DNA from: Kordiimonadaceae bacterium
GTDB taxonomy: Bacteria > Pseudomonadota > Alphaproteobacteria > Sphingomonadales > Emcibacteraceae
Length of the DNA stretch: 40,493 nt
Direction: 5' to 3'
Assembly (NCBI GenBank): GCA_018675425.1
Contig: JABGYD010000054.1
Coordinates: 1 to 40,493, forward strand
Shown here: in pieces, positions 32,248-40,493 of the stretch
How the letters are laid out: each line of letters begins with the position of its first letter
Numbering within the stretch: position 1 is the first letter of the stretch
Translations under genes and position numbers: made by a program
The notes under the pieces: model-generated
Told to the model about the DNA's origin: nothing
What the model saw: the letters and a program-made list of their open reading frames with translations, nothing else
The model's database searches: none

Positions 32248-33252
32248 ATGATGCTTAAAATTTTAACCAAGTTTTTTATTATTATTACTTTTATTTTAGT
32301 CTGTGGCTGTTCAAATAATAGTGAAAGTGAAAATAATAATATAGTCATGGACGATACTAAAGAAATAATGAGGGACATCATTGGCAACAATGCTTACTTA
32401 TATTATAAAAACTACAATGACGCTGTTAATTTTTATCATAATACGATGGGATTTAAGAATGTTTTTGAATTTCCGGACTTTGCTATAATCTTTCAAACAT
32501 CCCCGACTACGTTTATTACGGTTGTAAATGACAATGGTCGTGGAATGCATTCGGCTGATGAACCAAAAACGATAGCAATCGCACTCCTTACAGATCAGAT
32601 TGATGCTTGGTACGAATATGCTGTATCTCAAAATATGGATATTAGAAACCCACCAAAACCTCTTGGTGACAGCCCACATAATGGTTTTCTCGTAACTGAT
32701 CCTGGTGGCTATATTCTCGAATTTGAATATTTTGCACCACACCCAGAGAATTCTAAATTGATACCGTTATTAGAAGTTTCTGAGAATATTTATTTAGATA
32801 TTGGTCAGCAAAGTAGCCGACCAACTGAGCTTGGCTTTAAGGGAAGTATTTATTGGCTTTATCATAAAGACGCAAAAGAGGCTGCAGACTTTTATAGTAA
32901 TGTTATGGGTTTGAAAATGATTGTAGAGCAGCCATTTTCAGACATCTATACGTCATCACGCACCGGCTATATTGGTCTTGTTCTTGACGGCAGGGGTATT
33001 CATCCGGCAAGTCATGATAAGGCTGTAAATGTAGGGTTTATGACTACAAATGCACAGGCCTGGTTTGACCACCTTAAGAATGAACCATCCTTTAAACTAA
33101 GAACTGAGGAACTTTTTAACGAAAGTGGAGAAGATGGCACAGTTCTTATTGATATTGTGATTGGGTATGATCCTGACAATTATTATATCGAAATAGATGA
33201 ATTTCTAGATGTTGAAGCTAATAAGGCAATTAGAGCCGCTCTTAGTCAGTAG
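32248..33252 (+). CDS. Exported lipoprotein with two VOC (glyoxalase-like) domains
   Basis: Encodes 334 residues. A hydrophobic N-terminal segment ends in VCGC, so Cys21 is the probable lipidated residue (Cys at -2 is somewhat atypical for a lipobox). Two related domains follow: the first, near 45-165, includes NAYLYYKNYNDAVNFYHNTMGFKNV and ends PGGYILEFEY; the second, near 195-320, includes GSIYWLYHKDAKEAADFYSNVMGLKMI and ends DNYYIEIDEF. Both match the VOC fold, with Glu near each end as in metal-binding members. VOC proteins include dioxygenases, glyoxalases and resistance proteins; which applies is unknown. An envelope location is unusual for the fold. Start: first ATG of ATGATG after GAGAG. 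Confidence 0.78.
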   Translation: MMLKILTKFFIIITFILVCGCSNNSESENNNIVMDDTKEIMRDIIGNNAYLYYKNYNDAVNFYHNTMGFKNVFEFPDFAIIFQTSPTTFITVVNDNGRGMHSADEPKTIAIALLTDQIDAWYEYAVSQNMDIRNPPKPLGDSPHNGFLVTDPGGYILEFEYFAPHPENSKLIPLLEVSENIYLDIGQQSSRPTELGFKGSIYWLYHKDAKEAADFYSNVMGLKMIVEQPFSDIYTSSRTGYIGLVLDGRGIHPASHDKAVNVGFMTTNAQAWFDHLKNEPSFKLRTEELFNESGEDGTVLIDIVIGYDPDNYYIEIDEFLDVEANKAIRAALSQ

Positions 33253-33288: not shown

Positions 33289-34422
33289 TTACCAACCATT
33301 GCAACGAGGCCATTTCTCTATCTTTTTTTCATTTTGATTAATTACATTATAGCTGTCATATGCAGCGGCAGTCATACAAGCATGGTTAGGTAAAATACGA
33401 AGTTTTGTACCTATAAAAAATTTATCATAATCAAGGTCTGTACCGTCTTGGGTAGTAATTATGCCATGTTCTTGGTTGGCTCCTTTTACAAATAAGTTTT
33501 CTATCAATTTACCATTAAGGTCACAGACAAGACCATATCCACAATCAAAATCCGTACCATGCGTGGATTGGTCTTTGGAGAGTGCCATACCACCTGCATC
33601 TGTTATTATATGATTTTGATTTTTTTTATGGCTAATAATAGTAGTGAGGACAGATAGTGCCAGTTGGTCCTTTTCACAAACATTCCTGCCGGATTGAAAT
33701 AAATCTTGAAAGACGTAAACACCCGCACGAAATTCAGTAACTCCATTAAGGTTTTTTGCAAAGGTTGCTGTTGGCGTAGAGCCACAGCTGATTATACTGC
33801 AAGGAATACCTTTAGCCCTTATGTTATTCGCAGCCTTGACTATTAATGACCGTTCACCTTCAGCGGCATTTATTAAATCTTCTTCAGTATGGCAAGTATA
33901 ACTTTCACCAGCGTGCGTAAGAACACCAGAAAATTCTGAGTGCTGCCCTTCATGTAGAATACGAGCAATTTCAATAACGGCTGGATCATCAGGGCTTTTA
34001 CCTGCACGGTGCATATCTACATCTATTTCAATCAGAACACGGTATTTACCAGTAAAATTCAAATTCTGATTGTTCAGCGCTTTGGCAACACCTAGATCGT
34101 CAATTAGCAATTTTAAATCTACTCCACGACTTAATAAGGCATTAACGCGAGGTAATTTTGAAGGAACTATAGAGACGGCGTAAATGATGTCTCTAAAGCC
34201 TGCGTCAGCAAAATATTCTGCTTCACGAAGTGTCGAGACAGTGATAGGACCTATCATTCCATCATTAATTAATAGAGCAATTGGAATACATTTCGTTGTT
34301 TTGACATGAGGTCGAAAGCTGATCCCAAGTTTTTTACTCCTTTGGTTCATTCTATTAATATTGTCAGTAAGCTTTTGTTTGTCAATAAGGAGGCAAGGGG
34401 TAAACAGATCATCAAATAACAT
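33289..34422 (-). CDS. DSD1-family PLP enzyme (D-serine dehydratase / D-threonine aldolase-like)
   Basis: A 377-residue enzyme of the alanine-racemase-like fold III. The PLP lysine is Lys41 in FRPHVKTTK; SCGSTPTATF binds the cofactor phosphate. The C terminus has NHACMTAA, where His347 and Cys349 match the zinc ligands of eukaryotic D-serine dehydratase, and ends with the family motif WPRCNGW. Such enzymes cleave D-3-hydroxy amino acids (D-threonine, D-serine, 3-hydroxyaspartate); the exact substrate is not deducible. There is no signal peptide, so it is cytoplasmic. It is convergent with the VOC gene and divergent from the Tat-exported PLP enzyme at 34729. That second PLP enzyme next door suggests shared amino-acid substrates, which is inference. 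Confidence 0.88.
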   Translation of the reverse strand: MLFDDLFTPCLLIDKQKLTDNINRMNQRSKKLGISFRPHVKTTKCIPIALLINDGMIGPITVSTLREAEYFADAGFRDIIYAVSIVPSKLPRVNALLSRGVDLKLLIDDLGVAKALNNQNLNFTGKYRVLIEIDVDMHRAGKSPDDPAVIEIARILHEGQHSEFSGVLTHAGESYTCHTEEDLINAAEGERSLIVKAANNIRAKGIPCSIISCGSTPTATFAKNLNGVTEFRAGVYVFQDLFQSGRNVCEKDQLALSVLTTIISHKKNQNHIITDAGGMALSKDQSTHGTDFDCGYGLVCDLNGKLIENLFVKGANQEHGIITTQDGTDLDYDKFFIGTKLRILPNHACMTAAAYDSYNVINQNEKKIEKWPRCNGW

Positions 34423-34728: not shown

Positions 34729-36111
34729 ATGAAAAAATTTAAGGGAACAAATCGCAGGAATTTTATGAAGGGTGCTGCTGGCGTTACTGCTCTTTTGTCT
34801 GCTGCGGGAACCTCTAGTGCACTAGCTATGGGACAATCAAGAGGGGGATCGAGTAAGGGTTATGATTTTGATGAAATTTATAGTCGTATTGGTGTAAATT
34901 CAGTCAAATGGGACAATGCAATCCGTCGTTATGGTAAAGATAAAATTACAGTACCAATGGGCATTGCTGATCTTGATTTTAGACAACATCCTGCTGTTGT
35001 AAAAGCTCTCCAAAATAGAGCTACATATGATAATTATGGTTACGAAACTTTACCTTCAAGTTATTATGATGCGATTGTTAACTGGAATAAAGACCGTTAC
35101 GGTATCGAAGTTAAGCGCGAATGGATTAGAAATTCTGCAGCTCTAAAGCCAGGTATGATCTCTTCTATGCGAGGCCTGAACCCTGCTAAGGGTAAAGTTA
35201 TACTTCAAACACCGACTTATTCTGGCTTTAAGGGTGCTGTATCTAAAGCAGGTATGAGGGTTGAAATGAACCCAATGAAGAAAATTGACGGTCGCTGGCA
35301 TATGGATCTTGAAGATCTAGCGGAACGGCTTGATTATGAGACTAAATGCCTCATTCTCTGTAATCCTAATAATCCTTCAGGGGAGTGCTGGACGGCAGAT
35401 GAGCTTCGGGCACTTGGTGATCTTTGTATCAGCCGTGGCGTTACTGTTCTTGCGGACGAAATTCATTGTGATTACGTGAACAAGGGTCATAAGTTTGTGC
35501 CATATTCATCTATTGGTGAAAAATATGCTGAAACAAGTATTACCTATCGTTCTCCTTCCAAGACGTTTGGTCATGCCAATCTAAAAGTTGCATACTTTTA
35601 TACCCAAAATCAAGATTTGATGGATGCAACTATGATTGGTGGCGGTCATGACGCTGGTTGTAACGCATTTGGATTAATTGCCTGTCAAACAGCATTTGAA
35701 GAAGGTGCTGAGTGGGTAGATGATGTTGCTGAATATGTTGATTCAAACTTTGATTATCTTGTGGAATATGTAAATACTGCTGGTAATTTATCAGGTATTG
35801 AATACTCAAAGCCTGAAGGAACGTATCTTGCTTGGCTTGATTGTAATGGCCTTATGGAAAAGGTATCTGGTCCAGAACAAATGCGGGCTTATCATGACGC
35901 CCAACGTGATGCTGGTCGGAGACATTCTGGCTTAACTCGTGAGGGTTGTATGGGGGAGTGGATAGTTCAGAACTCAGGAGTTCAACTAAATTCGGGCTCT
36001 TCTTATGGTATTGGTTCTGATGGCTTCATGCGTATGAATGTAGCAGTTCCGCTTTCAAGCCTTAAAACTGCGCTTGATAGTTTAAATACAGCAATTAAAA
36101 AATTAGGTTAA
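34729..36111 (+). CDS. Tat-exported PLP-dependent aminotransferase-fold enzyme (MalY/PatB-like)
   Basis: Encodes 460 residues. Residues 7-14 (TNRRNFMK) are a twin-arginine motif, followed by a hydrophobic h-region and ALAMGQ, a plausible signal-peptidase site. The rest is a fold-type I enzyme: MGIADLDFRQHPAV, NPNNPSGE (213 onward), Asp243 in LADEIHCDY, and PLP Lys278 in SPSKTFGH. The ADLDF segment and overall order resemble MalY/PatB cystathionine beta-lyases more than general aminotransferases. Because Tat exports folded proteins, the PLP cofactor would be inserted in the cytoplasm and carried out. The likely products are pyruvate, ammonia and a thiol via an enamine, but the substrate is unproven. 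Two exported RidA genes lie downstream on the other strand. Confidence 0.85.
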   Translation: MKKFKGTNRRNFMKGAAGVTALLSAAGTSSALAMGQSRGGSSKGYDFDEIYSRIGVNSVKWDNAIRRYGKDKITVPMGIADLDFRQHPAVVKALQNRATYDNYGYETLPSSYYDAIVNWNKDRYGIEVKREWIRNSAALKPGMISSMRGLNPAKGKVILQTPTYSGFKGAVSKAGMRVEMNPMKKIDGRWHMDLEDLAERLDYETKCLILCNPNNPSGECWTADELRALGDLCISRGVTVLADEIHCDYVNKGHKFVPYSSIGEKYAETSITYRSPSKTFGHANLKVAYFYTQNQDLMDATMIGGGHDAGCNAFGLIACQTAFEEGAEWVDDVAEYVDSNFDYLVEYVNTAGNLSGIEYSKPEGTYLAWLDCNGLMEKVSGPEQMRAYHDAQRDAGRRHSGLTREGCMGEWIVQNSGVQLNSGSSYGIGSDGFMRMNVAVPLSSLKTALDSLNTAIKKLG

Positions 36112-36134
36112 TATCCTAAAATAAAAATAATGAT

Positions 36135-36164
36135 AGGCCGTTTCCTAATTGGAAGCGGCCTTTT
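36135..36164 (+). terminator. Strong intrinsic terminator after the Tat-exported PLP enzyme
   Basis: AGGCCGTTTCC (36135-36145) pairs with GGAAGCGGCCT (36151-36161) with one G-U pair and a five-base loop, followed by TTTT. It ends the plus-strand message. It lies in the convergent region before the DksA-like gene and might serve that strand weakly too. Confidence 0.88.
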
Positions 36165-36240
36165 ATAATGTTTGTTAACAAAAACTATTATTTTTAAAAA
36201 ATATTGACAATATAGAATTTGGAACTGATAGTTAACCTTA

Positions 36241-36588
36241 CTAATTTTCTCGATTTGCGCATTTTTTACACAATACGATTGATGGATCAAAAATAAGTCG
36301 TTTTTCATTGATTGTCTCGCCGCATTTAACGCAATATCCGTATTCCTCATCGTAGCCTGTTATTCGTTCAAGCGCGCTTTTAATACGTAGCAATTCGTGA
36401 TTACGACGCCTTTTTACTTCTTCGGCCATGGCTTGGCCCTGCATGGCGTCCATGCGGCTGAGCCGTCCGACTGATGTTTGGTCGAGTTTGACGGGGGCCA
36501 CGTCTTCTTTATGGTTCGTTATAAGTGTTAAAAGCTCCTCCTGTCTTTCAAGGAGAAGCCTTTTATATTTATTGTTGTCAATAGACAC
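36241..36588 (-). CDS. TraR/DksA-family zinc-finger protein
   Basis: A 115-residue protein with a long N-terminal helical hairpin (KRLLLERQEELLTLI ... SRMDAMQGQAMAEEVKRRRNHEL) and a C-terminal zinc finger formed by Cys86, Cys89, Cys107 and Cys110 (CVKCGE and CKKC). The coiled-coil tip carries SRMDAMQ. DksA/TraR proteins bind the RNA polymerase secondary channel; whether this short member does so is untested. It starts at GTG 36588, and the TAG stop of the lipoprotein RidA gene overlaps that GTG by one base, so translation is probably coupled. This suggests co-regulation with the RidA pair. Confidence 0.85.
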   Translation of the reverse strand: MSIDNNKYKRLLLERQEELLTLITNHKEDVAPVKLDQTSVGRLSRMDAMQGQAMAEEVKRRRNHELLRIKSALERITGYDEEYGYCVKCGETINEKRLIFDPSIVLCKKCANREN

Positions 36589-37142
36589 TAAGTGATTTCA
36601 AAAGTCGCGATGACTTCGCAGGCATCGCCTATGGGTAGCGAATTTGTACCAACAGCAGCGCGAGCAGCGAGGCCGCTATCACCAAATACATCCTGGAACA
36701 ATTCAGATGCACCGTTGATCACCAAATGCTGTTCAGTAAAATCGTTTGTGCAGCGGACGATACCTTGGAGTTGTACGCATTGTTCAACACGGTCAAGATC
36801 ACCGTCGCAGGCTGCCTTGAGTTGACTTAAAACAAGGATTGCAGCTTCTCTTGCAAACGCATATCCTTGTTGGGTGTTGTATTTTTTACCGATGACGCCT
36901 TTATGACTTGCTGCTTGTCCTGCGATATAAACCATGTTCCCGATTTTGCGCCAAGGAGTATAAGTAGCGAGTGCCATTTTGGCTTCTGGAAGTTCAATAC
37001 CCATTTCACTAAGCTTTGCGTTAATTTTACCGTTTGATGGTGTAGGCGGTATCTCCGTTGATGTAACTGTTGTATCATCAGATTTACCACAAGCAGAAAT
37101 AATACTTGCTAAGGCAGTTGTTAATATTGCCCTACGTATCAT
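36588..37142 (-). CDS. RidA-family protein with lipoprotein signal (copy 1)
   Basis: Encodes 184 residues from the ATG at 37140-37142. MIRRAILTTALASIISACGKS is a lipoprotein signal with lipobox ISAC and Cys18 as the lipid site; Gly at +2 favours outer-membrane sorting. The mature domain, from about residue 38, is a YjgF/RidA/UK114 fold: GNMVYIAGQ, LVINGASELFQDVFG, ARAAVGTNSLP with Arg161, and CEVIATFE with Glu176, matching the Arg and Glu used for enamine/imine hydrolysis. An upstream in-frame start at 37176-37178 would add 12 residues and spoil the signal, so it is rejected. Its start overlaps the stop of copy 2 by one base (TAATG). The periplasmic face of a membrane is the expected location. 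Confidence 0.86.
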   Translation of the reverse strand: MIRRAILTTALASIISACGKSDDTTVTSTEIPPTPSNGKINAKLSEMGIELPEAKMALATYTPWRKIGNMVYIAGQAASHKGVIGKKYNTQQGYAFAREAAILVLSQLKAACDGDLDRVEQCVQLQGIVRCTNDFTEQHLVINGASELFQDVFGDSGLAARAAVGTNSLPIGDACEVIATFEIT

Positions 37143-37687
37143 TATGCAACCTCGAATACGGCAAGAACCTCGCAACAAATACCAAGTGGCAGGCTGTTGG
37201 TACCAATTGCCGCACGTGCTGCAAGTCCAGGCTCACCCCATATGTCTTGGAAGAGCTCAGATGTTCCGTTTATCACTAAATGCTGTTCTGTGTAATCATC
37301 ACTTGAATTCACAAGGCCTTGGATTTGAACGCACTGTTTTACGAGGTCTAGATCACCACCACATGCAGATTTAAGCTGACCGAGGAGGTTGATGCCGCAA
37401 TAGCGTGCTGCTGCATAACCTTCATCCGTTGTCATGTTTTCACCAAGTTTACCAAGGACAAGACCGTCTGGGCCCGCTGGTACTTGTCCGGCGATGTAAA
37501 CCATATTTCCAACTTTACGCCAACCGACATATGCAGCAACAGGTGCCTCAGCGGCTTTGACATCAATATTCAATTCTTTTAGTCTTGCGTCAACTTTTCC
37601 AGTTGATTGTGAAACAGCCTTATTGCTAAGTAAGCTTGCTCCTAGGACCGTAATAGCTGCAGCATTAAAAAAACTTCTTCTTTTCAT
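37142..37687 (-). CDS. RidA-family protein with Tat-like signal peptide (copy 2)
   Basis: Encodes 181 residues starting MKRRSFFNAAAITVLGASLL, an RR motif (KRRSFFN) with a short hydrophobic core and AVS-Q as possible cleavage site, so export by Tat is likely; Sec is possible. The RidA domain carries GNMVYIAGQVP, LVINGTSELFQDIWG, Arg158 in ARAAIGTNSLP and Glu173 in CEVLAVFE. It is closely similar to copy 1 over the whole domain, including the unusual EQHLVING stretch, so the pair arose by tandem duplication. It is the promoter-proximal gene of a three-gene unit with copy 1 and the DksA-like gene. RidA homologues hydrolyse 2-aminoacrylate and related enamines released by PLP enzymes. Confidence 0.87.
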   Translation of the reverse strand: MKRRSFFNAAAITVLGASLLSNKAVSQSTGKVDARLKELNIDVKAAEAPVAAYVGWRKVGNMVYIAGQVPAGPDGLVLGKLGENMTTDEGYAAARYCGINLLGQLKSACGGDLDLVKQCVQIQGLVNSSDDYTEQHLVINGTSELFQDIWGEPGLAARAAIGTNSLPLGICCEVLAVFEVA

Positions 37688-37860: not shown

Positions 37861-38244
37861 ATGGAACTTTTATCATTAGTCATATTGCTTGCATTGCTGC
37901 AATATATATATTTTGCAATATTAGTAGGAAAAGCAAGGGGAACCTATAATGTTGATGCACCAGCAACAACTGGTCATGAGGTTTTTGAGCGTCAGTACAG
38001 GGTCCAAATGAATACTCTTGAACTTCTTCTAGTGTTGTTACCCTGTATGGTGATTTTTGGACAACATGTTCGTGTGGATGTTGCAGCCTATGCAGGGTTT
38101 GTCTTTATTATTGGTCGTTTTGTTTTCTTGAAAAGTTATATGGCTGACCCTAAAAAACGGACCGTAGGCTTTTTATTGAGTATTCTGCCTATTCTAGTTT
38201 TGTTACTTTGGGGAATTTTCTCTTTAGCTACAAAAATAATTTAA
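37861..38244 (+). CDS. MAPEG-family membrane protein (glutathione-transferase-like)
   Basis: Encodes 127 residues with four membrane helices. The motif FERQYRVQMNTLE (Glu43, Arg44, Arg47, Asn51, Glu54) is the glutathione-binding signature of microsomal GST and leukotriene C4 synthase relatives. Such proteins conjugate glutathione to hydrophobic electrophiles in the inner membrane; the substrate here is unknown. The ATG at 37861 is preferred over a farther in-frame start at 37798 because the extra 21 residues are polar and unlike the family N terminus. AAAGAA lies upstream. It shares a terminator with the TonB receptor gene, which is on the opposite strand and converges with it. Glutathione recycling by gor fits this activity. 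Confidence 0.86.
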   Translation: MELLSLVILLALLQYIYFAILVGKARGTYNVDAPATTGHEVFERQYRVQMNTLELLLVLLPCMVIFGQHVRVDVAAYAGFVFIIGRFVFLKSYMADPKKRTVGFLLSILPILVLLLWGIFSLATKII

Positions 38245-38323: not shown

Positions 38324-40493
38324 TCAAAATTGTTGACTAATTCTTCCATAAATCATGCGTTGTCTTGGATCATGCACTTTACTATCAAAACCACCATTTG
38401 TAGAAACCTTAGGGATGGCCTTATCAAAAGCATTAATAACTCCAATTGATAAGCGTGTTGGTGCATCATTAGGGTCACCTAATAAATAACTATATTGAAA
38501 GTCAACCGTTGTATAACTTGGTATTTGAACTGCATTTTGATCGTCCGTATATCCATCAATGTAACGGATAAATACATTAGCAGTGCTATTATCATTACTA
38601 TAGCCTACATTAGCACTTGCTCGTAATTGTGGCATTGAACGTGCGAAGTTATTGAAATTGCGGCTCCCAACTCCCTCGAATTTTACACCCGACTGATCAA
38701 CGGCATCATAATTAAATACATATGTTGCTTGTATACCAGTATGGATCTGGCCTAATGCATTTGACAAATCTGTTTTGTATCGAATATTAAAATCCATACC
38801 ATTCGTAGTGACCTTTGGAGCATTAATTATTTTAGTGTCAATTAAGTATAGTGATGATATTTGGCCAGGGGTGCTAAGGTTAAGCTGTGACAGTGCCTGT
38901 GCATTTCCCTTTAAGGCTTTATTAACTACGGATTGAGAGTTTTCCTGGGTAATCAGATTAGAAAACTTATAACCCCAGTAATCAACGCCAATACTCAAAG
39001 CATTTGTAGGAGCCCAGGTAAAACCGAAATTATAAACGTCCGAACTTTCTGGAACTAAAGTTGCATTACCAGTGGACCTTACTGGAAGGAAAGTCTTGGT
39101 AGTTCCAATTGTAATTTCATTAAGTGCAGTTTGAACCCCATAAGTATTATAGAGGGAAGGTGCCCTAAATGCCGTACTAAATGAACCCCTTATAGAAAAA
39201 CTATCATCAGGTCGCCATAGAACGGAAACTTTTGGATCAAAACTATTTACACTGTTTCCGTAATCTTCGTAACGGGCAGCGACTTGGATATCTAATGTAT
39301 CACTAAGTGGAATGGCAATTTCACTGAAGAGAGAGTAAATATTCCGCTCCCCACTATAGTCAGGACCGCCATAAAGGAACATTAAGTTTCCTCCATTTAA
39401 GCCAGCCGCGTTTGTGCCGTTAGATCCATTTCCATTAGGTCCATTATAATCAGTACTCCAATCATAACTCATTTTTTCTTTTCGATAGTCTGCACCAAAT
39501 GCAACCTGAACAGTATTTTGTCCGATTTCAAATAAATCCCCATTAACATGAGCTCCTATATTATAAAGCTCAGTACTTCCTTTTACGTTCATCTTAGCAG
39601 TGATTGCATCAATTGCAGCTTGGCTGTTTGGGTGCGTTGTATGTGATGTTCCAAAAGGATTGTATGCCCCAGTAAGTAATGCATTTATATAATTATCGCG
39701 CTTCACATCGTTGACCGTTGTATAGTTTTTACTTTTACTAAAGTTAGCGGATGTTTCCCAACTCCAATTAGAATTCAAATCACCATCAAGAGTTGATGCT
39801 ATGCGATATGTATCATTTTTGTGATCAGATTTAAATGCGGCCCCATTATCACCCTGTACGCGACCTAAAAATAATACACTGTTTGCACTTAATGCAGATG
39901 CTGTAGTTTGTAATTCAGATGGAACGTGAGAAAAATAAGCACCCGTTTTGGAGTTTCTTAGGGCAACTGGTACTGGAGAAGATATTGGGAAAGCGGGTGC
40001 ATTATTACGAATAGCTTTATTATTACTCAGCCCCCCCTCAATATAGAAATGCACCTTATCGTTAAGGTCAGTATCAAAAGATGTAAATATTTGTGTGCGA
40101 TCTTCCTCTGGAACGAGATCATAATATGGATCAAACTGAAAATTACAGCCGCCTATTTCTAAAAGTCCTACATTTCCTTGTTTTCCTGAATTTCGAGTGG
40201 AATTTGGTGCAGTCCCACAATATGGGTCAATAACAGGTACTGCATCTAAGAAACCATTACTGTTCGCATCCCCCGTACTTCCTACTCCACCGGGAGCAGG
40301 AACTTTATCTTTGAAATAAATAGTCCCGGGGCTGCCAGATCCTGATATCCCGCTACCAGATGTAATTTCAGAACGTTGAGCTGCTGTTAAGCGAGAACGG
40401 TGCATAAAGCTACTTGCAATAACAAAATTACCCTTTTCCCCAACCTTAGAACCCCAGATTGCGGATACATCATAATCTCTTTGGCTATCTGAA
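38324..40493 (-). CDS. TonB-dependent outer-membrane receptor, 5' end outside the window
   Basis: The reading frame runs from TAA at 38324 to the right edge without a start, giving about 722 residues, so the N terminus is missing. The frame continues upstream of an internal Met at 40405, and that extra 29 residues (DYDVSAIWGSKVGEKGNF ...) look like plug or early barrel. Features are the many aromatic beta strands, loops rich in Asn, Gly and Ser, FRAPSLYNTYG, NPFGTSHT and the terminal GRISQQF with a C-terminal Phe that signals barrel assembly. These receptors import siderophores, vitamins or oligomers with TonB energy. The substrate cannot be named, but the loop-rich, long barrel is of the type common in Sphingomonad- and Kordiimonad-like bacteria. 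Confidence 0.9.
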   Translation of the reverse strand, partial: SDSQRDYDVSAIWGSKVGEKGNFVIASSFMHRSRLTAAQRSEITSGSGISGSGSPGTIYFKDKVPAPGGVGSTGDANSNGFLDAVPVIDPYCGTAPNSTRNSGKQGNVGLLEIGGCNFQFDPYYDLVPEEDRTQIFTSFDTDLNDKVHFYIEGGLSNNKAIRNNAPAFPISSPVPVALRNSKTGAYFSHVPSELQTTASALSANSVLFLGRVQGDNGAAFKSDHKNDTYRIASTLDGDLNSNWSWETSANFSKSKNYTTVNDVKRDNYINALLTGAYNPFGTSHTTHPNSQAAIDAITAKMNVKGSTELYNIGAHVNGDLFEIGQNTVQVAFGADYRKEKMSYDWSTDYNGPNGNGSNGTNAAGLNGGNLMFLYGGPDYSGERNIYSLFSEIAIPLSDTLDIQVAARYEDYGNSVNSFDPKVSVLWRPDDSFSIRGSFSTAFRAPSLYNTYGVQTALNEITIGTTKTFLPVRSTGNATLVPESSDVYNFGFTWAPTNALSIGVDYWGYKFSNLITQENSQSVVNKALKGNAQALSQLNLSTPGQISSLYLIDTKIINAPKVTTNGMDFNIRYKTDLSNALGQIHTGIQATYVFNYDAVDQSGVKFEGVGSRNFNNFARSMPQLRASANVGYSNDNSTANVFIRYIDGYTDDQNAVQIPSYTTVDFQYSYLLGDPNDAPTRLSIGVINAFDKAIPKVSTNGGFDSKVHDPRQRMIYGRISQQF

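Follow-up and report, generated by a model that had tools for sequence, protein, structure and literature searches.

A Tat-type PatB-like enzyme gene beside two export-bound Rid1-like genes in a Kordiimonadaceae genome: one periplasmic system or neighbouring modules?

Introduction

On contig JABGYD010000054.1 of a Kordiimonadaceae bacterium (GTDB family Emcibacteraceae; assembly GCA_018675425.1; "the window" below is the whole stretch analysed, positions 1 to 40,493), a gene for a PatB/MalY-like pyridoxal 5'-phosphate (PLP) enzyme, P, lies close to two genes for Rid1-like proteins, R1 and R2, and all three proteins begin with what look like export signals. Do these genes encode one periplasmic system, in which P releases enamines and R1 and R2 clear them, as the original prediction held, or do separate modules adjoin here? 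We consider it about an even call that two export-bound modules stand side by side, the Rid proteins serving as a general periplasmic enamine and imine clean-up for which the product of P would be one possible substrate. The three genes are as follows.

34729..36111, plus strand: P, PatB/MalY-like PLP enzyme of 460 amino acids (aa) with a twin-arginine translocation (Tat)-type signal (Pfam/NCBIfam, motifs, alignment, predicted fold)
36588..37142, minus strand: R2, Rid1-like predicted lipoprotein of 184 aa, lipobox ISAC with Cys18, Arg161/Glu176 (PF14588, alignment)
37142..37687, minus strand: R1, Rid1-like protein of 181 aa with a Tat-type signal, Arg158/Glu173 (PF14588, alignment, predicted fold)

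Results

Families and catalytic residues of P, R1 and R2

The prediction of a MalY/PatB-like PLP enzyme with a twin-arginine signal was borne out: the open reading frame (ORF) of P opens with a Tat-like N-terminus, KGTNRRNFMKGAAGVTALLSAAG, in which TNRRNFMKG spans residues 7–15. P matched Pfam Aminotran_1_2, and its best NCBIfam model was TIGR04350 (PatB C-S lyase), with 307 bits against a cut-off of 340; two further Tat-type PatB-like proteins, those of loci L137 and L133, scored 295.5 and 323.7, respectively. A Foldseek search with the predicted model returned 4dq6 and 4dgt first (named putative aminotransferases), followed by the C-S lyases 6qp3 and 9k71 and by cystalysin. The PLP lysine, K278 in SPSKTF, was invariant in all 17 aligned P-family rows, and by alignment and predicted fold P has the PatB-type architecture. 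In its AlphaFold model, the predicted local distance difference test score (pLDDT) was below 50 at residues 1–43, and the remainder folded like PatB. Each genome of the genus held two to eight P-family matches at E<=1e-30 if fragments at contig edges are counted; that of the window has two more Tat-type PatB-like paralogues in tandem on contig C3 (L073:9816-12703), with 43% and 39% identity to P by BLAST.

The two RidA-family ORFs were likewise in place, R1 with the Tat-like signal and R2 with the lipobox that had been predicted for them. R1 starts with MKRRSFF (MKRRSFFNAAAITVLGASLL), and R2, read from the ATG at 37142, starts with MIRRAILTTALASIISAC, which contains the lipobox; the mechanically called ORF of R2 opens at an upstream TTG, an unlikely start that is not needed. 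Both matched PF14588 (YjgF_endoribonc), which we take to be the model of the Rid1 kind, with 65.7 bits for R2 and 63.4 bits for R1 over a cut-off of 35. The catalytic pairs had been named correctly as Arg158/Glu173 and Arg161/Glu176; the columns equivalent to Arg105 of RidA and its glutamate partner (presumably residue 120) were invariant in 21 of 21 aligned rows, and the pair also lined up with PA0814. The predicted model of R1, in which pLDDT was below 50 at residues 1–26 and the remainder folded like Rid proteins, matched 3d01, 2otm and then PA0814 (9bk9). Since PA0814 and ACIAD3089 were among the best solved relatives of R1 and both belong to Rid1 (PMC5619798), we took R1 and R2 to be of this kind. 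The passages of that paper available to us describe imine deaminase activity for PA0814 and ACIAD3089, deamination of 2-aminoacrylate in vitro by Rid1–3 proteins, and the ability of Rid1 proteins to rescue a ridA mutant. Judged from their residues, R1 and R2 are predicted to retain what imine or enamine hydrolysis requires. Seven PF01042 matches were found in the window's genome, R1 and R2 included; one of the other five proteins, of 161 aa and 41% identity to R1, leaves no room for a signal.

Export signals

A home-made rule for Tat-type starts (RR-x-hydrophobic-x, then a hydrophobic stretch) was applied to the ORFs of the window and of 40 related loci (L059-L098). Among the 37 window ORFs of at least 100 aa that were left after removal of overlaps, it marked three, which were exactly P, R1 and R2. 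Over the window and the 40 loci, 51 of the 61 members of the P and Rid families were marked, as against 5 of 525 other ORFs; these tallies are not independent, since the counted sequences are homologues. Ten family members went unmarked: two P copies that are truncated, four Rid relatives of the Sec or lipoprotein type, and four that are more distantly related. Within the first 40 residues of 17 aligned P-family sequences of the genus, only R9, R10, F12, K14 and L22 were invariant. R1 kept RRxFF in all ten genus copies read and had a Tat-like start in all 14 sister-genus copies called as ORFs, and a matching lipobox was present in 9 of 9 R2 copies read. The window's genome encodes TatC, so that the twin-arginine n-region and hydrophobic stretch expected of a Tat substrate occur together with a component of the pathway, and in R2 the lipobox ending in Cys18 follows a hydrophobic stretch, as in bacterial lipoproteins.

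From these motifs, P, R1 and R2 are apparently exported. That the signals are non-functional and the three proteins cytoplasmic appears very improbable: localisation is read here from motifs, but the RR motif, the hydrophobic stretch and the lipobox have been conserved in an N-terminus much of which is variable, the signal stretches are the low-confidence parts of the structure models, and the Rid1 relatives of the class, among the matches listed, mostly align only past about model position 25, beyond the signal.

Gene order

The following features surround the three genes.

33289..34422, minus strand: DSD, PLP enzyme of the D-serine-dehydratase/alanine-racemase-N type, 377 aa, no signal seen, divergent from P
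36135..36161, plus strand: hairpin resembling a terminator, located between P and the convergent Rid unit (the region has 3 such sites, with 3.4 expected by chance)
36241..36588, minus strand: DksA/TraR-type C4 zinc-finger protein of 115 aa, starting with GTG at the R2 stop, as the final gene of the R1–R2 unit
37861..38244, plus strand: MAPEG-family membrane protein, divergent from R1 and close to it in six loci of the genus

On the minus strand, R1, R2 and the zinc-finger gene follow one another with one base shared at each junction, and because of these overlaps they look like one operon. P is convergent to the Rid genes, with the zinc-finger gene in between, and divergent from DSD; given the convergent orientation, P and the Rid genes do not form one operon. 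Scans of the region for promoters and terminators gave site numbers about as expected by chance.

P and the Rid genes outside the genus

The relatives sample comprised 60 genomes of 27 genera, with 13 from the window's genus (counting the window's own genome, which is 2.2 Mb, rated 99.6% complete, and has the window as its contig 69) and 16 from a sister genus, g3. In g3, an R1 orthologue of at least 51% identity was present in 15 of 16 genomes and P in none, and the listed matches contained no second Rid1 gene adjoining R1. P-type matches at E<=1e-30 occurred in the 13 genus members and, beyond them, in G041 only, whose protein has no signal.

Beyond this sample, we searched a collection of named genomes, keeping the best 80 of 500 relatives with flanks of up to 10 kb; since only these were kept, further loci of this kind may escape the search. 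P-family proteins with Tat-like starts were encoded outside the genus at no fewer than nine of these loci, in metagenome-assembled genomes (MAGs) named Gemmatimonadetes, Gemmatimonadales, Acidobacteria, Proteobacteria, Pseudomonadales and Gammaproteobacteria. A Rid1-type gene was found at none of the nine and at none of the best 80 loci (E<=1e-4); the scan used a Rid1-type model, which would miss distant Rid kinds and which did detect the Rid proteins of the window and of the 40-locus Tat tally. In two of the nine genomes (G443 and G449), a Rid1 protein whose start looks Tat-like by eye is encoded elsewhere. P and exported Rid genes were thus seen together in one genus and not beyond it.

Alignments of the two families were also used to survey the class and the phylum. 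The P alignment matched 26 of 385 genomes of the class at E<=1e-60, and besides the window's genome the rows started at model position 26 or later; in the phylum, it matched 1 of 398 genomes at E<=1e-90, which was the window's own, with no further copy spanning the signal. The Rid alignment matched 277 of the 385 class genomes at E<=1e-38, and the matches listed were mostly rows without a signal.

Two side observations come from these loci. In three gammaproteobacterial MAGs, a Tat-type HisC/PtaA-like aminotransferase gene adjoins the Tat-type PatB gene or is one gene away from it (L137:7512-8660, L143:8657-9904 and L147:8715-9887; only the L137 copy was family-scanned), which places two exported PLP enzymes together. 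In G046, a Tat-type Rid1 gene (L094:10009-10581) adjoins an FMN-dependent dehydrogenase gene and sugar-acid genes, and there was no PLP gene among the six neighbours scanned.

Steadier neighbours of P and of R1

P stands beside DSD, with or without the gene of a flavin adenine dinucleotide (FAD)-dependent DAO-type oxidoreductase between them, in all nine genus genomes whose contig extends to this point, the window among them. In eight of ten genus genomes the DAO gene adjoins P, and it is absent there in the window and in G011; the window's own genome gave no match to it at E<=1e-30. DAO and DSD are divergent from P and overlap each other in six of the seven loci that hold both. DAO and DSD remain with P in G012 and G006 as well, two genomes in which the Rid genes do not lie with P.

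R1 has neighbours of its own, a pair of amidohydrolase genes that are divergent from it and whose products have secreted-looking N-termini. R1 lies beside this pair in 11 of the 15 g3 loci, a count in which some contig ends leave one of the pair and in which L091 was taken from match coordinates because an antisense ORF was called there; one of the other four loci ends at R1. In the window's genus, the pair is beside R1 in 3 of 10 loci (G006, G010 and G012), and in G012 R1 and R2 adjoin the amidohydrolases, as R1 does in most sister-genus loci.

The finding of R1 in 15 of 16 g3 genomes and of P in none suggests that R1 predates P within this family. The history could be a simple one: R1 and the amidohydrolases would go far back in the family, P would have entered the genus beside them with DAO and DSD, and most members of the genus would later have lost the amidohydrolases; alternatively, P may have been lost in the sister genus.

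The steadiness of the P–(DAO)–DSD arrangement raises the alternative that P belongs with DSD and DAO in a pathway for D- or beta-hydroxy-amino acids, perhaps as an exported racemase or lyase, and that the Rid operon is an unrelated neighbour. It is consistent with the retention of this arrangement in G012 and G006, with the DAO–DSD overlaps, with one unrelated MAG (L135) in which a DAO gene of this kind is 1.4 kb away from that of the Tat-type PatB protein, and with the ability of a MalY protein to racemise amino acids (see below). Yet the window's own genome yielded no DAO gene, P is predicted to be exported while DSD has no signal, and DSD scores far under the cut-off of the BhcC model. We regard this account as possible but somewhat unlikely.

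A second exported Rid-like pair

The window's genome holds a second tandem pair of exported Rid-like genes on contig C72 (L074:8994-10117), and further copies are found at L075-L078. At E<=1e-25, the pair was present in 8 of the 13 genus genomes and in none of the other 47; the two proteins of the window's genome had no Pfam or NCBIfam match at E<=0.001. In the five loci read, one member looks Sec-type, and the other is lipoprotein-like in four. The pair is absent in G005, G006, G009, G010 and G012, all of which have P, and present in G002, which has neither a P orthologue nor R1.

Near the second pair in G001 (L077:2-9326) lie two amine-oxidase-like genes with a KRDFL start that the Tat rule leaves unmarked, the one scanned matching Amino_oxidase, and genes of M19-type membrane dipeptidases, two of them with Tat-like starts. 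These genes are possibly another source of periplasmic imines or dehydro-amino acids. Together with the amidohydrolase pair of the sister genus and with G046, where a Tat-type Rid1 gene lies about 5 kb from an M19 dipeptidase gene with a Tat-like start, they suggest that R1 and R2 might serve exported enzymes other than P (amidohydrolases, M19 dipeptidases or amine oxidases), among whose products there would be imines or dehydro-amino acids. As the amidohydrolase pair adjoins R1 in so few loci of the genus, however, and as the dipeptidase and oxidase contexts are single cases that did not recur in the other four second-pair loci read, we think this distinctly unlikely. A system of M19 dehydropeptidase plus Rid protein was set aside, with two single cases only.

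Do P and the Rid genes belong together?

Several observations weigh against our reading of two separate modules with a general Rid clean-up. As to P itself, its TIGR04350 score stays under the curated PatB cut-off, so that C-S lyase activity is not assured, and one MalY protein is known to have broad racemase activity (in the accessible passages of PMC5845896). As to distribution, a P orthologue (at least 77% identity) was found in 12 of the 13 genus genomes, in pieces in G008, and R1 in 11 of the 13, as a fragment at a contig end in G004; G003, where the contig ends beside the P genes, lacks R1, and G002, the only genus genome without a P orthologue (it has a 49% relative), lacks R1 too. Eleven genomes have both, and in nine of the ten resolvable ones (G000, G001, G004, G005, G007, G008, G009, G010 and G011) no more than about 3 kb separates P from R; in some of these, a P paralogue or another gene intervenes. 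The distance is 11.6 kb in G012, and in G006 P and R fall on different contigs. This proximity and the joint absence in G002 keep a closer link between P and R in play. Moreover, the tandem R1–R2 pair was found, among the matches listed for the 27 genera, only in the genus with the P family, and the second exported pair was likewise confined to it within the 60 genomes. G011, which is the nearest relative as judged by P, has lost R2, so the R1–R2 pair is not indispensable.

On this evidence we examined the proposal that P, R1 and R2 form one dedicated periplasmic system of beta-elimination and enamine clearing. All three are exported by motif, their genes are close in the genus, in the sample only the genus with the P family has R2 and the second pair, and the chemistry fits what the available passages of PMC4433059 and PMC5619798 say of Rid proteins and PLP lyases. 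The joint system thus gains from the conserved signals, TatC, the intact catalytic residues and the proximity, but the genes lie in separate convergent units, and each is found without the other outside the genus: R1 without P in the sister genus, and Tat-type PatB genes of other groups with no Rid1-type gene nearby and an exported-looking Rid1 elsewhere in few of their genomes. Co-occurrence, which the original prediction had named as one of its checks, therefore holds within the genus and fails beyond it. In G012, P stays with DSD and DAO and the Rid genes with the amidohydrolases. In addition, DUF5117, MAPEG and ArgC genes are likewise conserved in order in several loci of the genus, so that the closeness of P and R is partly plain synteny and says little. 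The components are real, the evidence argues weakly for one dedicated system, and we hold such a system to be rather unlikely.

A bolder reading would have the genus run an extracytoplasmic economy of amino-acid beta-elimination, in which the Tat-exported PatB-like family makes periplasmic enamines and up to four exported Rid-type proteins clear them, these proteins forming two pairs in which one member is soluble and the other usually a lipoprotein. Such enlarged periplasmic enamine chemistry fits the joint presence of the P family, R1–R2 and the second pair in the same genus, yet this is one branch of the tree, and we consider the reading unlikely.

Other features of the window

At 32248-33252 a lipoprotein is predicted that has a glyoxalase/VOC domain and the N-terminus ITFILVCGCS; four loci of the genus have a homologue in the same stretch as P. 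At 38324-40405 is a TonB-dependent receptor barrel without a plug match; with 693 aa against 916 aa in the longer G011 homologue, the window copy is either truncated by the end of the contig or disrupted close to its start. A mercapturate-type route combining MAPEG and PatB was dropped, with no evidence to support it.

Discussion

Under the reading of two modules side by side, the events may be pictured as follows. P would fold with PLP in the cytoplasm and leave by Tat already folded; its most likely reaction in the periplasm, to judge from its family, would be beta-elimination on an amino acid with a beta substituent (thio or hydroxy), releasing an enamine that would go on to keto acid and ammonia. 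Its module partners would be the signal-less DSD-like enzyme and, in most of the genus, the FAD (DAO-type) oxidoreductase. R1, soluble and Tat-exported, and R2, a lipoprotein, would act as a duplicated pair of Rid1-like deaminases for general periplasmic clean-up; R1 seems to have been associated first with two secreted-looking amidohydrolases. If P makes 2-aminoacrylate in the periplasm, R1 and R2 would meet it there.

In the passages available, Rid proteins have been studied chiefly as protectors of intracellular PLP enzymes (PMC4433059, PMC5619798). Periplasmic versions, one of them a lipoprotein, would mean, if real, that reactive enamines and imines are made and cleared beyond the cytoplasm too, and would raise the question of what such proteins protect or accelerate in that compartment. 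The Tat-type PatB-like family, met in MAGs of several phyla among the best 80 of 500 relatives, would in turn be a candidate supplier of thiols or ammonia, drawn from amino acids outside the cell.

How new is this arrangement? The original prediction knew of no described system of its kind, which was too strong: exported oxidase–RidA pairs and Tat-exported PLP enzymes are in print, as the passages available show. For an exported PatB-type enzyme with an exported Rid protein, we found no paper among the matches listed from the open-licence literature. Clustering of Rid-family genes with those of PLP enzymes and FAD amine oxidases is described by Niehaus et al. (PMC4433059, in the part available).

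R1 and R2 share the PF14588 domain, the Arg/Glu pair and the fold with the Rid1 subfamily (PA0814, ACIAD3089; PMC5619798), and differ from it in having export signals and in their duplication, which gives one soluble protein and one lipoprotein; neither "signal" nor "periplasm" occurs as a word in the text of PMC5619798. P has the fold and PLP lysine of the PatB/MalY C-S lyases (6qp3 of B. subtilis, cystalysin, E. coli MalY), from which it is set apart by its Tat-type signal, an insertion before the C-terminal part, and the score under the TIGR04350 cut-off. PvdN and PtaA of Pseudomonas, which act in pyoverdine maturation, are PLP enzymes exported folded by Tat, as P would be (PMC6206403); they belong to other PLP subfamilies and to a siderophore pathway, and the portion of that paper available mentions no Rid partner.

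The nearest precedents pair an exported imine-producing enzyme with a Rid-family gene, as the window may do. In the passages available, a Tat-type L-amino-acid oxidase gene is clustered with ridA (lao-cccA-ridA) in Gluconacetobacter diazotrophicus (PMC5053998), and LAO1 occurs with LAO2/RidA in the periplasm of Chlamydomonas (PMC10805672). There the source of the imine is a flavin oxidase with one Rid protein, whereas the window has a PLP enzyme with two Rid1-like proteins in a separate operon. An exported imine-producing enzyme with a Rid protein has thus already been proposed in print, and the putative combination of a PLP enzyme with two Rid1-like proteins is a variant of it.

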